Source of the DNA: an uncultured Prochlorococcus sp.
GTDB taxonomy: Bacteria; Cyanobacteriota; Cyanobacteriia; PCC-6307; Cyanobiaceae
DNA length: 64,000 nucleotides
Direction of reading: 5' to 3'
NCBI GenBank assembly: GCA_902626435.1
Contig: CACOFO010000001.1
Coordinates: forward strand, 47,170 to 111,169
Part shown: positions 46,140-63,259 of the stretch, piece after piece
How positions within the stretch are numbered: position 1 is the stretch's first letter
How the letters are laid out: every line of letters starts with the position of its first letter
The notes under the pieces: generated by a model
The model's input: the letters and a program-made list of their open reading frames with translations, nothing else
Database searches by the model: none
What the model was told of the DNA's origin: nothing
Position numbers and translations under genes: made by a program

Positions 46140-46713
46140 AGTACTCGAAGTTGGCATAGATGAAGTTGGCAGGGGAGCAGTTTTTGGTCCAGTTTTCTCA
46201 GCAGTTATCGTATTAACTGAAGAAAATAAATTTATTTTGAAACAATTTGGAGTGATGGATAGCAAAAAATTATCTCCCAAAAAAAGAAAATTACTTTTGC
46301 CGAAAATTTTATTACTCTCTTCAGATTATGGAATTGGGCAATCCTCTACCAGAGAAATAGATAAGTTCGGCATTAGAGTTGCTACAGAACTTTCAATGAT
46401 AAGAGCTTTAAAAAAATTAAAGCAGAAGCCATCTGAAATAATAATTGATGGCCCCTTACTTTTAAGGCTATGGAATAGAAATCAGAAAAATATAGTATCA
46501 GGAGACTCTAAGTTCACATCAATAGCTTCAGCAAGCATAGTTGCAAAAGTATCTCGCGATAATCTAATGGAAAGGTTAGAAAGAAAATACTCAGGCTACT
46601 TAATATTTAAAAATAAAGGCTATGGCACAAGAGAGCACCTTTCAATTATCAAAAAATATGGAATAACTAATCTTCATAGAAAAAGTTTTTTAAAAAAATC
46701 AAAGCTTATTTAA
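46096..46713 (+). CDS. rnhB: Ribonuclease HII
   Basis: RNase HII removes ribonucleotides from DNA. The 205 residues show [15 protein letters not shown] near residue 19 (catalytic Asp and Glu), [12 protein letters not shown] near 52, and IIDGPLL near 116, with [18 protein letters not shown] near 135. The ATG at 46096 overlaps rne by 44 bases in another frame; a TTG at 46132 gives an eight-base overlap and still precedes the first conserved motif. Either way it is co-translated with rne. It converges on the DUF1997 gene with a 15-base overlap. Confidence 0.95.
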
Positions 46714-47217
46714 GCTACACCAATCTAAAAAATCTTTAACTAATTGCTGCTGAACTCTTGCCTTTATACCCAACAAAATCCCGTTTAATACCGAATGACC
46801 GGTAGATTCCAAAATTCTCTTTGGCACAAATTTTAATAAAGGGGGTTGACTTACAGATACCCCTAAAAGCGCCTCTCCTTCTAATCCAATGGAAGTTGCT
46901 TCTAAATTCGCTTTCAAAATAAGATTAAAGTCATCTATTATCCCTAAACCATCTAATGTACTTTCAAGGGCACTCATTCTTAAAATTCCATCTTTATTTT
47001 CTACCGCAATTGAAACAACAGGGTTAATATCTAATTGAAAAACCTTAAAACTTGTTACTGTATACTTATATCTACCTTCTCCTTCAGGTACTAATTTTTT
47101 GGAGTCTAACATCGCTCCAACAACTCTTTCTTCTTCCAAAAGATATTTAGGAAGATATTCTTTATTTCGTGTTACAGAAAGCTTTAGTTTCTGTTTAGCA
47201 TCAAAAGATAATAGCAT
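46699..47217 (-). CDS. DUF1997 family protein
   Basis: A 172-residue soluble protein of the cyanobacterial/plastid family DUF1997. It has alternating beta strands resembling a lipid-binding START/polyketide cyclase-like fold ([37 protein letters not shown]). No catalytic residues are evident. It overlaps the end of rnhB by 15 bases and is divergent from pheA across 52 bases. Confidence 0.82.
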
Positions 47218-47269: not shown

Positions 47270-48115
47270 ATGCGCAAACAAGTTGCATATTTAGGTCCTA
47301 AAGGGACATTCGCAGAAAAAGCAGCTCATATATTATCAAAGCTTGCCAATTTTCAGACACCTATATTTGTACCATGTAATGGGTTACATTCGGTTATTAA
47401 ATCGATAGCGTACAACAATTGTGATGCTGCTGTAGTTCCTATTGAAAATTCTGTAGAAGGGCCAGTTACAGCGACTTTAGATGCTCTATGGAAATTTCCC
47501 GAAATATTTATCAATAGAGCAATTGTTTTACCCATAAAACATGCATTAATTAGTGATGGTGAACTTTCAAATATTTCAGAAGTACTATCTCATCCTCAAG
47601 CATTAGCTCAATGTTCAGAATGGTTATCTGAAAATCTTCCAAATGCAATCCCTCTACCAACAAATTCAACATCAGAAGCTGTCAACATGGTCAAGGGCAG
47701 TAAATTTAGAGCAGCTATTGGTTCAAAATCATTAATTCAAATCGAAGGCCTTAAAGAATTAGCTTTTCCTATTAATGATGTGCCAGGTAATTGCACTAGA
47801 TTTATTTTATTAAGTAAAAAATCTAATTCTAATTCAGCTAACATTGCTAGTTTTGCTTTCTCACTAATATCAAATAGACCAGGCGCTCTAATTAAAGCCT
47901 TAAATTATATTGCAAATTATGGATTTAATATGAGCAAAATAGAGTCGAGACCTTCCAAAAGAGAGTTAGGTGAATACATAATTTATATTGATGTAGAATT
48001 AGATAATGAAAAAAATATTGCAAATTTTCTTGAATTGAAAAATAATATTAAACCACTATGTAAGAAATTTGTAGATTTTGGAAATTATTTTTCTGAAAAT
48101 TTCGAATTAAATTGA
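47270..48115 (+). CDS. pheA: Prephenate dehydratase
   Basis: It converts prephenate to phenylpyruvate for phenylalanine synthesis. The 281 residues have the PDT domain (YLGPKGTFAEKAA at residues 7-19, VPIENSVEGPVTATLD near 63-78, DVPGNCTRFILLS near 169) and a C-terminal ACT domain with SNRPGALIKALNYIANYG near 203 and ESRPSKRELGEYIIYID near 223, which binds phenylalanine as feedback inhibitor. It is a monofunctional enzyme with no chorismate mutase part. It converges on the MPBQ methyltransferase gene with a one-base gap. Confidence 0.97.
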   Translation: MRKQVAYLGPKGTFAEKAAHILSKLANFQTPIFVPCNGLHSVIKSIAYNNCDAAVVPIENSVEGPVTATLDALWKFPEIFINRAIVLPIKHALISDGELSNISEVLSHPQALAQCSEWLSENLPNAIPLPTNSTSEAVNMVKGSKFRAAIGSKSLIQIEGLKELAFPINDVPGNCTRFILLSKKSNSNSANIASFAFSLISNRPGALIKALNYIANYGFNMSKIESRPSKRELGEYIIYIDVELDNEKNIANFLELKNNIKPLCKKFVDFGNYFSENFELN

Positions 48116-60629: not shown

Positions 60630-60738
60630 AGTAAAAAAACATTATAATAAAATCTCTTCATCCAAAAATTATAATTATTATAGTGTTTTAATTGTTCTAT
60701 TTATTGTTTTTTTTTGGGGTATTTGATACAGTAAAAAA
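60626..60738 (+). repeat. Direct repeat of ATACAGTAAAAAA, 100 bases apart
   Basis: Two identical 13-base copies at 60626-60638 and 60726-60738. Each is preceded by a GTAT half that makes a small inverted repeat (GTAT-N6-ATAC and GTAT-N3-ATAC). Together with the TGTTCTAT copies they make the upstream region of the recombinase-like gene unusually repeat-rich. Confidence 0.6.
60693..60700. promoter_or_regulatory. Second TGTTCTAT box
   Basis: An exact copy of the left arm of the inverted repeat at 60582-60589, 111 bases downstream. It overlaps a possible TTG start at 60692 and is one reason to prefer the later start for the recombinase-like gene. Confidence 0.4.
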
Positions 60739-60754
60739 TATATCTTTTAATACT

Positions 60755-61378
60755 TTGTCTTTTCATTTCAAAAGAAAGAGCTCTCTTTTATCTGAGAAGA
60801 ATAAAAAGAAAAAATCTATAGGATATGCTAGAGCAATTGATAATGAAAGTTTTTACCTAGAGGAACAAATACAATTCTTAAAAAATGAAGGTTGCAATTT
60901 AATATTTTCTGAAATCTTGAGTCTTGATTCAGAAATAAAGCCCGAATTCCAAAAAGCTTTAAAAGCTTTATCTAAAGGAGATGAATTAGTCTTAACCAAA
61001 CTGGATCGGGCATTTTCTAATAGAAATGAATGTATAGTAGTCATAAATAGACTTTTAAATCAAGATGTCCAGTTACGAACTTTATCTGGTTTTTTTACCA
61101 ATAAAGATTCTCCAAACGCATCATCTTTAATCTTTAATATTTTATGTGAATTAAATAATTTAGATAATGAGTGCCTAAAAGAAAGAAAAAGAGAAAACTT
61201 TTTAAAAAGAAGATTAAATGGGAATAATTTGGGAGGGAGGCCCAAGATAAGTACTTTAAAGGAATCTCTAGTAATTAGATTGCGTGACGAAGGCTATTCA
61301 TATCGATCAATCAGAGCACAAACAGGAATAGCCTTATCAACTATTAGAAGAGTAATCTTAGATGAAGAAGGTAAGTAA
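60755..61378 (+). CDS. Degenerate serine-recombinase-like DNA-binding protein
   Basis: The frame resembles a resolvase/invertase (SIGYARAIDNESFYLEEQIQ, then LVLTKLDRAFSN) followed by a GGRPKISTLKE linker and a C-terminal helix-turn-helix (YSYRSIRAQTGIALSTIRRV). Family members have YARVST, whose Ser is the catalytic nucleophile; here it is Ile. The second active-site Arg (DRLGRS) is also lost. So it should be unable to cut DNA and may act as a regulator. No ATG is available: TTG at 60755 gives 207 residues; TTG at 60692 would add 21 residues, but that stretch is a poly-T-derived hydrophobic run overlapping a TGTTCTAT repeat. Confidence 0.75.
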   Translation: MSFHFKRKSSLLSEKNKKKKSIGYARAIDNESFYLEEQIQFLKNEGCNLIFSEILSLDSEIKPEFQKALKALSKGDELVLTKLDRAFSNRNECIVVINRLLNQDVQLRTLSGFFTNKDSPNASSLIFNILCELNNLDNECLKERKRENFLKRRLNGNNLGGRPKISTLKESLVIRLRDEGYSYRSIRAQTGIALSTIRRVILDEEGK

Positions 61379-61379
61379 T

Positions 61380-61592
61380 ATGAAAAAAAACGAACTTGAA
61401 AATCTTATTAAAGAAAATTTTAAAGATACAGCATTGCGAATTTATGAATTAGATAATGGAGATAGAAATAGCTTATTAGCAGAATATCGAGAATGGATAA
61501 TGAATGACTTAGATTTTGAGGAAGTAATGATGTTACCTTATGAAGCCTATACTGACAGGTTAGATTCTAATTGTCTAGACGATTTACTTTAG
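61380..61592 (+). CDS. Small acidic protein of unknown function
   Basis: From ATG 61380 it has 70 residues; an in-frame ATG at 61362 would add six and overlap the preceding gene by 17 bases. It has 18 acidic and eight basic side chains, with patterns LLAEYREWIMNDLDFEEVM and YEAYTDRLDSNCLDDLL. It looks alpha-helical and soluble, with no metal-binding or enzyme motif. It starts one base after the recombinase-like stop, so the two are very likely co-translated. The acidity could mean it binds a basic protein such as its neighbour, but that is a guess. Its stop overlaps the convergent beta-lactamase-like gene by four bases. Confidence 0.7.
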   Translation: MKKNELENLIKENFKDTALRIYELDNGDRNSLLAEYREWIMNDLDFEEVMMLPYEAYTDRLDSNCLDDLL

Positions 61593-62497
61593 TCGTGAAT
61601 AAAATGTTTCTTGTTAAATTCATATACTTCTTTTGCTATTAATGGTAAGAAGGAAGTATCTTTAGAATAATTTTCTCCATTACAAAAAATAACCAATAAT
61701 GTATGCAGAGATTGACTATTAGTCCACCAAGCAGAATCATGTCTAACTTCAGACATTAAGCCTGCTTTACTCCAAAGATTAATGCTTTCTGGTAATCCTG
61801 CACCCAAAAAACCATCTATTTGATTAAGAGCATCGTTCTTGAGAAAAACTTTATTTAAATTTCTTTTTAAAAAACTTCGTAAATTTAAATCATTTTTTTG
61901 ATAGTCAATATGAATCATAATTTCCTCCAAAACCCGAGCAGCTGAATCAGAATTCATGGCATTTCTATTTTTATTATCAAGTCCGTAAAATTCTTTTTCA
62001 CGACCAAATGGTCCATCATCCCAAGTCTTCTGACAACAGTTTATATCACTCAATTCGTCCCAATGTAAATCATGTAGCCAATCGTTTATTATATTTCTTT
62101 GATATTTCCAATTTTCCCATAATTCGCCTTCAATACAAGGTCCACTTGTTGTTCCAGTAAGTAAATCAATTAAGAAGCTTGTTGCATTGTTACTTGAGAA
62201 AGACAGCATTTTCCTTACAGCATCAATTATTTCATCTGATAATAATAAACTTCCTTTTTTAATCCAATAAAATGCAGCAAGGCCATAAACCAACTTGACT
62301 ATGCTGGCAGGGTAGAACATTTTTTTATTATTAATACCAGTTCCAAAACCTTTAAATACTCTTTTATTTTCACTTTTATAATTAATCCAAGTTATAGCAA
62401 TATCTTCTCTTGAAAAATCTTTATTATAAGAGCATACTCTCCCTAAGATATCATTTAAGGCTAGACCCATCTCTTCACTTAAATAGTAAAAGGACAT
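61589..62497 (-). CDS. Class A beta-lactamase-fold serine hydrolase
   Basis: The 302 residues carry penicillin-recognising enzyme motifs: S65-x-x-K68 in YPASIVKLVYG, an SSNN segment near residues 101-104 (SxN), and KAG in LWSKAGLMSE near residue 247 replacing the KTG triad. No signal peptide is visible, so it should be cytosolic, unlike typical beta-lactamases or penicillin-binding proteins. It may act on peptidoglycan-derived peptides or other amides; resistance activity is not implied. A second in-frame ATG at 62470 would shorten it by nine residues. Only three bases separate its start from the divergent NlpC/P60 start. Confidence 0.8.
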   Translation of the reverse strand: MSFYYLSEEMGLALNDILGRVCSYNKDFSREDIAITWINYKSENKRVFKGFGTGINNKKMFYPASIVKLVYGLAAFYWIKKGSLLLSDEIIDAVRKMLSFSSNNATSFLIDLLTGTTSGPCIEGELWENWKYQRNIINDWLHDLHWDELSDINCCQKTWDDGPFGREKEFYGLDNKNRNAMNSDSAARVLEEIMIHIDYQKNDLNLRSFLKRNLNKVFLKNDALNQIDGFLGAGLPESINLWSKAGLMSEVRHDSAWWTNSQSLHTLLVIFCNGENYSKDTSFLPLIAKEVYEFNKKHFIHD

Positions 62498-62500
62498 AGT

Positions 62501-63259
62501 ATGGAAAATAATAAAAATCCTATCTCACTATTTAAGCAAACTAATTTTTCAAAAACTATTTGGTGGAAATTAAAAGTTAATATTTCTGGATATCAAAATG
62601 AAACAGAAGATAAATTAATAACTGAAATATTTAAAAATAGAATTTTTAGGCTACTTTATCCAAATATTTATCAACATAACCATAAACTTTCAAGAATTCT
62701 TGTTCAACTATATGAAGATGGTTACATCTGTTGGATAAATTTAGATGAATTGATTATTGAGAAATACGAATTAAGAAAAACTAAAAGTTTAAAAAATGAA
62801 CATTTCTTTATAGACGATAAAATTACCTCAATTTTAAAGTGGATCAAAGATCAAGCTAAGTTAAATAATGAATACCTTTGGGGAGGCACATTAGGTCCAC
62901 ATTTTGATTGTTCTGGATTAATTCAGACTGCTTTTTTAAAACATAATATTCATATACCTCGAGACTCTTATCAAATAAAAAGTTTTTGTAAACATCTTTT
63001 TTATTTCAAAGAATCTTATTTAGCTCTACAACCAGGTGATCTTTTATTTTTTGGAAATGAAGAAAAATGTGATCACATTGGAATCTACAAAGGGGATGGA
63101 TTATATTACCATAGCTCTGGAAAGGATTTTGGCAGAAATGGTATAGGCTTAGATACCCTAAAACGGTCTAATGATAAAATCTCATTGCATTATAAATCAA
63201 AACTAATTTCTGCAGGAAGAGTAGTTAGAAATTATAGATGGGATAGAACAATACGTTAG
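62501..63259 (+). CDS. NlpC/P60 family peptidase (probable muropeptide endopeptidase)
   Basis: The C-terminal half is an NlpC/P60 domain with catalytic Cys137 (HFDCSGLIQTAF), His192 (CDHIGIYKGDG) and His204 (YYHSSG), and LQPGDLLFFG at about residue 177. The N-terminal half (about 1-105) is likely the SH3-like domain seen in the cyanobacterial enzymes AvPCP and NpPCP, which cleave L-Ala-gamma-D-Glu-diaminopimelate peptides. No signal peptide is evident, so a role in recycling cytosolic wall peptides is possible. The start is ATG 62501, three bases from the divergent beta-lactamase-like gene. Confidence 0.88.
   Translation: MENNKNPISLFKQTNFSKTIWWKLKVNISGYQNETEDKLITEIFKNRIFRLLYPNIYQHNHKLSRILVQLYEDGYICWINLDELIIEKYELRKTKSLKNEHFFIDDKITSILKWIKDQAKLNNEYLWGGTLGPHFDCSGLIQTAFLKHNIHIPRDSYQIKSFCKHLFYFKESYLALQPGDLLFFGNEEKCDHIGIYKGDGLYYHSSGKDFGRNGIGLDTLKRSNDKISLHYKSKLISAGRVVRNYRWDRTIR

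Follow-up and report, generated by a model that had tools for sequence, protein, structure and literature searches.

Described routes for the cytosolic recycling of murein peptides, namely LdcA-MpaA-YcjG in Escherichia coli and YkfABC in Bacillus, involve a gamma-D-Glu-diaminopimelate (DAP) endopeptidase and an LdcA-type S66 peptidase. YkfC (3h41), which in B. subtilis acts together with YkfA and YkfB, and the cyanobacterial AvPCP and NpPCP from Anabaena and Nostoc (2hbw, 2evr/2fg0) are gamma-D-Glu-L-diamino-acid endopeptidases. Penicillin-binding and beta-lactamase folds are generally regarded as belonging to wall-side enzymes. PBP-A, represented by Tll2115 of Thermosynechococcus elongatus (2j7v, 2j9o), has a class A-like fold and is a DD-peptidase of cyanobacteria (PMC11189452). 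Here, a locus is considered in which genes for an NlpC/P60 endopeptidase (nlpC) and for a beta-lactamase-fold protein (bla) stand head to head. It lies in a window of 64,000 nt, the whole stretch of DNA analysed, from an uncultured Prochlorococcus sp. (assembly GCA_902626435.1, 1.07 Mb and 65% complete; contig CACOFO010000001.1, positions 47,170 to 111,169). The locus could be read as a conserved pair of divergently oriented genes whose products would degrade free wall stem peptides in the cytosol, with promoters placed face to face, an explanation whose chances seem about even. The following features define it:

61589..62497, minus strand: bla, beta-lactamase-fold gene, 302 aa, ATG start at 62497 (open reading frame list, Pfam PF13354)
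62501..63259, plus strand: nlpC, NlpC/P60 gene, 252 aa, ATG start at 62501 (open reading frame list, Pfam)
62498..62500, no strand: AGT spacer between the divergent ATGs of bla and nlpC, read from the sequence
62488..62494, plus strand: AAAAGGA, putative Shine-Dalgarno-like element for nlpC, within bla codons 2-4 and 6 nt 5' of the nlpC ATG

A first-pass annotation of this DNA had named both folds and had placed the two starts three bases apart on opposite strands, and both statements hold, the identities being borne out by Pfam, PDB and Foldseek matches and by conserved motifs, and the ATGs standing at 62497 (minus) and 62501 (plus). Of the 76 named Prochlorococcus loci having both genes, 73 show a gap of precisely 3 nt, and the records of Prochlorococcus HNLC2 and W8 show 13 nt, the ATG being 13 nt away; the gap mostly measures 13-21 nt, and within this range mainly 17-21 nt, in the remaining Cyanobiaceae, and 6-250 nt in most loci outside that family. 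A divergent spacing of 3 nt is rare, though not unique: in a baseline taken from 400 kb of one close relative with crude open reading frame calls, the median spacing among 85 divergent neighbours was 181 nt, and just 3-6 of them stood 10 nt or less apart. Both genes are widespread: among 251 Cyanobiaceae genomes, 229 carry one and 228 the other, and among 145 genomes of the class the two counts are 115 and 134. Outside Cyanobiaceae, 97 genomes hold both; they are divergent neighbours in 44 of these, across 16 families, and they lie apart in 22 and on separate contigs in 31, fragmented assemblies included. The synteny survey proposed in the first-pass annotation finds the divergent adjacency in 17 cyanobacterial families in all, with changing flanking genes; the neighbours of the pair in the window are psaL, lipA and the resolvase-like gene, none of which was found next to the pair in the flanks, about 1-1.5 kb long, of 48 loci from outside the genus. 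Since the adjacency persists in many families while the flanks differ, the pairing outlasts its surroundings, and bla-nlpC is a phylum-wide pair, far older than the genus, that has been compacted in Prochlorococcus. Full-text literature searches returned no title or abstract on the pair, although a description may still exist; in the literature searched, neither the cytosolic family of beta-lactamase-fold proteins nor its pairing across the phylum seems to have been described.

The spacing also has consequences for transcription. A gap of 3 nt forces either promoter into the gene opposite, except where a transcript has no leader; leaderless mRNAs probably exist in Prochlorococcus MED4 (PMC5607370) and are a real option for bla and nlpC. 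If both mRNAs carry leaders, their 5' ends would overlap and mutual antisense control may be possible. Two further features are relevant here:

62504..62605, plus strand: nlpC codons 2-35, with depressed synonymous variation and near-invariant nucleotide runs, candidate bla promoter or 5' region
62508..62513, minus strand: TATTAT, weak candidate -10 element of bla, TATAAT in the consensus of related Prochlorococcus

For synonymous variation, nlpC codons 2-35 have an observed-to-expected ratio of 0.23, lower than in any other of the 17 genes tested, and the body of nlpC has 0.88, while the 5' end of bla shows 0.56 against 0.74 in its own body. The earlier claim that the promoters lie within each other's coding sequences follows from the geometry and agrees with constraint in the 5' end of nlpC, whereas there is hardly any in that of bla. 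Elsewhere in the window, another divergent pair, at 46699-47217 (minus) and 47270-48115 (plus), is separated by 52 nt, and codons 2-35 of its plus-strand gene show a ratio of 0.31. Many loci of the genus, but not all clades, have a hexamer resembling TATAAT 10 nt ahead of the bla ATG; the candidate -10 element would leave bla a 5' untranslated region of only a few bases. The low synonymous variation fits an embedded bla promoter, without proving one, and nlpC codons 2-35 probably carry a second, non-coding function of this type. A serious alternative, which has a considerable chance of being correct although it stays below even, is that this constraint reflects translation initiation of nlpC through codon choice and weak mRNA structure. 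Genes that have no close divergent neighbour also show 5' depression (tuf with a ratio of 0.21, gltB with 0.49), and a scan with consensus promoters found sites no more numerous than in shuffled sequences. Nevertheless, nlpC has the most depressed codons 2-35 of the 17 genes, the next lowest value belongs to the gene at 47270, which has a close divergent neighbour as well, and the bla promoter must lie in this segment unless bla is leaderless.

The nlpC product is predicted to combine an SH3b domain with an NlpC/P60 endopeptidase domain of the YkfC/AvPCP type, in which an N-terminal SH3b domain packs on the catalytic one. Its best solved relatives in a PDB search are AvPCP/NpPCP (2hbw, E 7e-39; 2evr, E 2e-38), the phmmer alignment to 2hbw covering residues 62-248 and taking in the end of SH3b, while the Pfam SH3_16 match reaches 16.2 bits, under the cut-off. 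The catalytic residues C137, H192 and H204, together with Y75 in the predicted SH3b domain, D155, which follows the conserved R154, and R154 itself, are invariant in 22 sequences, as are Y125, W127, D136 and S138 of the gamma-D-Glu pocket. Mapped on the residues given in the YkfC paper (PMC2954226), Y75, Y125, W127, D136, C137 and S138 correspond to Tyr118, Tyr226, Trp228, Asp237, Cys238 and Ser239 of YkfC, and R154, D155, H192 and H204 to Arg255, Asp256, His291 and His303. In YkfC, the free amine of L-Ala is bound by Tyr118, whose counterpart in AvPCP is Tyr64, and Asp256, and the gamma-D-Glu pocket is formed by Tyr226, Trp228, Asp237 and Ser239 (PMC2954226), so that Y75 and D155 are expected to hold the free L-Ala amine. 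The protein shares the triad, the S1/S2 residues, the Tyr/Asp pair and the lack of a signal peptide with these endopeptidases, and probably the two-domain layout with AvPCP/NpPCP, although its identity to homologues outside the genus is only about 30-45%. This half of the pair is an already known kind of enzyme, and its predicted role in the catabolism or recycling of wall peptides is well supported by the conserved active site. The available part of the YkfC paper makes no mention of a divergent beta-lactamase-fold partner (PMC2954226).

The bla product is predicted to be a cytosolic serine hydrolase of the beta-lactamase/PBP-A fold (PF13354), with the motifs S65-x-x-K68, S101-x-N103 and W242-S-K-A-G246. 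S65/K68, S101/N103 and K244-A-G246 are invariant in 39 sequences from two phyla (30 cyanobacterial and 9 alphaproteobacterial). The AlphaFold model has a pLDDT of 88, its lowest part being the region of the omega loop, which in class A beta-lactamases bears the deacylating Glu166; at residues 158-161 confidence falls under 50. In Foldseek, the model matches PBP-A and class A beta-lactamases best, both with a probability of 1.00 and with PBP-A on top. A single-sequence search against the PDB gave chance matches only, and a profile search a weak match to PBP-A (E 1e-3); the window protein matched no NCBIfam model, while 26 of the 30 members of its family matched NF033103 (class A beta-lactamase) weakly, and no homologue was found in phage records. 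The protein shares the class A-like fold of PBP-A; however, with 13-15% identity and that single profile match, it is not PBP-A by sequence. It also differs in the flank of the active site (a conserved N-x-x-x-K-T-W...G-x-x-G-R in cyanobacteria, and K-A-G), in lacking a signal peptide and in being paired with nlpC. The fold and the acylation motifs are common to class A beta-lactamases (PF13354; NF033103) as well, but bla has no export signal, unlike the secreted class A enzymes, and no close sequence relative among solved enzymes. The bla product belongs to an uncharacterised family of predicted cytosolic location, and its fold, intact motifs and genome context suggest that it would act in the cytosol as a peptidase, freeing D-amino acids from peptides of the wall, an assignment whose likelihood falls just short of even.

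Relatives of bla with about 30% identity occur on plasmids of Rhizobiaceae, Nitratireductor and Sulfitobacter, and no signal peptides were seen in them by hydropathy. Their genes are clustered, next to a LysR link, with those of ABC importers of the peptide type or of the matching binding proteins; a D-amino-acid transaminase is present in two clusters, a YkuD + AstE/AspA protein in two and a prolyl aminopeptidase in two, and near one cluster lies a D-amino-acid dehydrogenase, the D-amino-acid enzymes scoring above NCBIfam subfamily cut-offs. By guilt by association, this context would offer independent support for a peptidase yielding D-amino acids from imported peptides. In two loci on Rhizobium plasmids (L241 and L248), genes for a prolyl aminopeptidase and an ABC importer for peptides come directly after the bla relative, the D-amino-acid dehydrogenase lying near it in L248, and this gene set is possibly a D-peptide utilisation cluster.

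Alternatively, bla could be a cytosolic hydrolase with another job, acting on esters or amides or detoxifying antibiotics, and its adjacency to nlpC could reflect shared regulation or ancient chance. The low identity of the fold match, the class A beta-lactamases among the structural neighbours and the cyanobacterial families in which the two genes lie apart would all be compatible with this proposal, which seems, however, rather unlikely, as the adjacency recurs in 17 families despite changing flanks, relatives in a second phylum adjoin peptide importers and D-amino-acid enzymes, and a cytosolic enzyme would be ill placed to shield wall synthesis from beta-lactams. Some beta-lactamase-fold proteins serve as ligand sensors, and bla might accordingly bind wall fragments in a BlaR-like manner with no catalysis, but this is very improbable given that all the acylation motifs are invariant in the 39 sequences and that a DNA-binding or membrane domain is absent.

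The starts and the location of both proteins bear on all of the above. There is no alternative ATG, GTG or TTG near the 5' end of the nlpC frame, and the Shine-Dalgarno-like AAAAGGA is mostly retained in Prochlorococcus, with AAAAAGA in one clade. Codon 1 of bla opens an M-x-F-F/Y motif that the alignment shows to be kept in nearly all relatives across the cyanobacterial phylum (MSFY and MAFY in Cyanobiaceae, MTFF and MVFF in other families), and some alphaproteobacterial relatives start similarly (MFFK, MFFT, MFYT). As nlpC has no other start and the bla motif is conserved, both starts look right, and misplacement, including true starts further downstream as the first-pass annotation had allowed, is rejected. 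Translation of bla from its second ATG at codon 10 (62470-62468), which would widen the gap to 30 bases, is hardly credible, for even though that ATG is also conserved within Cyanobiaceae and no clear Shine-Dalgarno sequence precedes codon 1, M10 is mostly replaced by L outside the family and the codon-1 motif is phylum-wide and recognisable beyond the phylum. Moreover, hydropathy revealed no strongly hydrophobic N-terminus in 107 sequences and no signal peptide in either family; the maximum 11-residue window has a median of 0.94 in bla and 0.31 in nlpC, compared with 2.4-2.5 in binding proteins that are secreted, and a few high nlpC values (L097, L104) are artefacts of over-long start choices. 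Export of either protein is thereby rejected, in agreement with the original description of both as lacking signal peptides.

In the preferred explanation, bla would have the PBP-A/class A fold, remain in the cytosol and act there as a serine peptidase, which would release D-amino acids, most likely the C-terminal D-Ala, from stem peptides or from products of nlpC such as DAP-D-Ala. The bla promoter would be located within the first approximately 35 codons of nlpC, as the sequence constraint suggests, and that of nlpC within the start of bla, as suggested by geometry only, Prochlorococcus having compacted an arrangement that would predate the genus. LdcA-type S66 peptidases (PF02016, over the cut-off) were found in 20 of 20 genomes tested, which weakens the idea that bla is a missing LD-carboxypeptidase. 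Strong dipeptide-epimerase-like matches (PF13378) were not found in the Prochlorococcus genomes, where two weaker ones were taken as MenC and enolase, and are present in other cyanobacteria. Because S66 peptidases are present and no Mpl exceeds the cut-off, the free tripeptide is probably broken down, and breakdown seems likelier than direct re-ligation in Prochlorococcus. Compared with the E. coli and Bacillus routes, with which it shares the cytosolic gamma-D-Glu-DAP endopeptidase and the S66 peptidase, Prochlorococcus has no epimerase seen, no Mpl over the cut-off and an extra beta-lactamase-fold member. The suggestion that the pair forms a peptidoglycan recycling system stands, therefore, for nlpC, through its predicted YkfC/AvPCP-type active site, and for bla through context only, that is, through the pairing and the alphaproteobacterial neighbours.

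Several observations weigh against this explanation. The structural similarity found for bla is remote (10-16% identity, TM 0.55-0.66), and such a modelled match cannot separate a peptidase from an esterase, an amidase or a beta-lactamase. The pair and its adjacency are not universal, as one family mostly has nlpC without bla and several have the genes apart, and the alphaproteobacterial genes are relatives of bla, not orthologues, next to importers whose substrates are only predicted to be peptide-type. The 5' constraint may stem from translation initiation, since tuf and the gene at 47270 show likewise. Moreover, the LdcA homologues already give a predicted cytosolic route for D-Ala removal. 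Mpl exceeded the curated cut-off in 0 of 20 genomes, a strict cut-off that the Mpl of S. elongatus also fell short of despite its annotation (PMC7464499), and no epimerase-like protein that would act on L-Ala-gamma-D-Glu was seen in Prochlorococcus.

Beside the pair, the resolvase-like gene at 60692-61378 (plus; PF00239 and a helix-turn-helix) occurs in 22 of 22 Prochlorococcus loci tested and not beside the pair outside the genus. Its catalytic serine position (YAR-A-x) holds I, T, S, A or L, so that the protein has probably been domesticated and lost recombinase activity, and perhaps serves as a DNA-binding regulator. There is doubt about its TTG start at 60692; synonymous variation is very low (0.18) over the first 24 codons (60692-60800), which would fit a promoter or leader, and the conserved protein seems to begin further downstream. 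A 76-aa open reading frame at 61362-61592 (plus), conserved in Prochlorococcus, is convergent with bla and overlaps its 3' end by 4 bases.

Taken further, and more tentatively, bla could represent a family, not described so far, of peptidases with a penicillin-binding fold that work in the cytosol and free D-amino acids from wall peptides, whether imported or recycled, the family being spread through Cyanobacteria, with a gamma-D-Glu-DAP endopeptidase as divergent partner, and in alphaproteobacterial peptide-import operons, the Prochlorococcus mRNAs overlapping at their 5' ends and possibly acting as mutual antisense. If true, peptidoglycan recycling, of which little is known in this phylum, would gain a step through this conserved cytosolic family tied to wall-peptide breakdown, and light would fall on the relation of class A beta-lactamases to peptidases. 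With its start-to-start geometry, the locus also offers a simple case in which to test whether promoters lie within opposing coding sequences of a streamlined genome.
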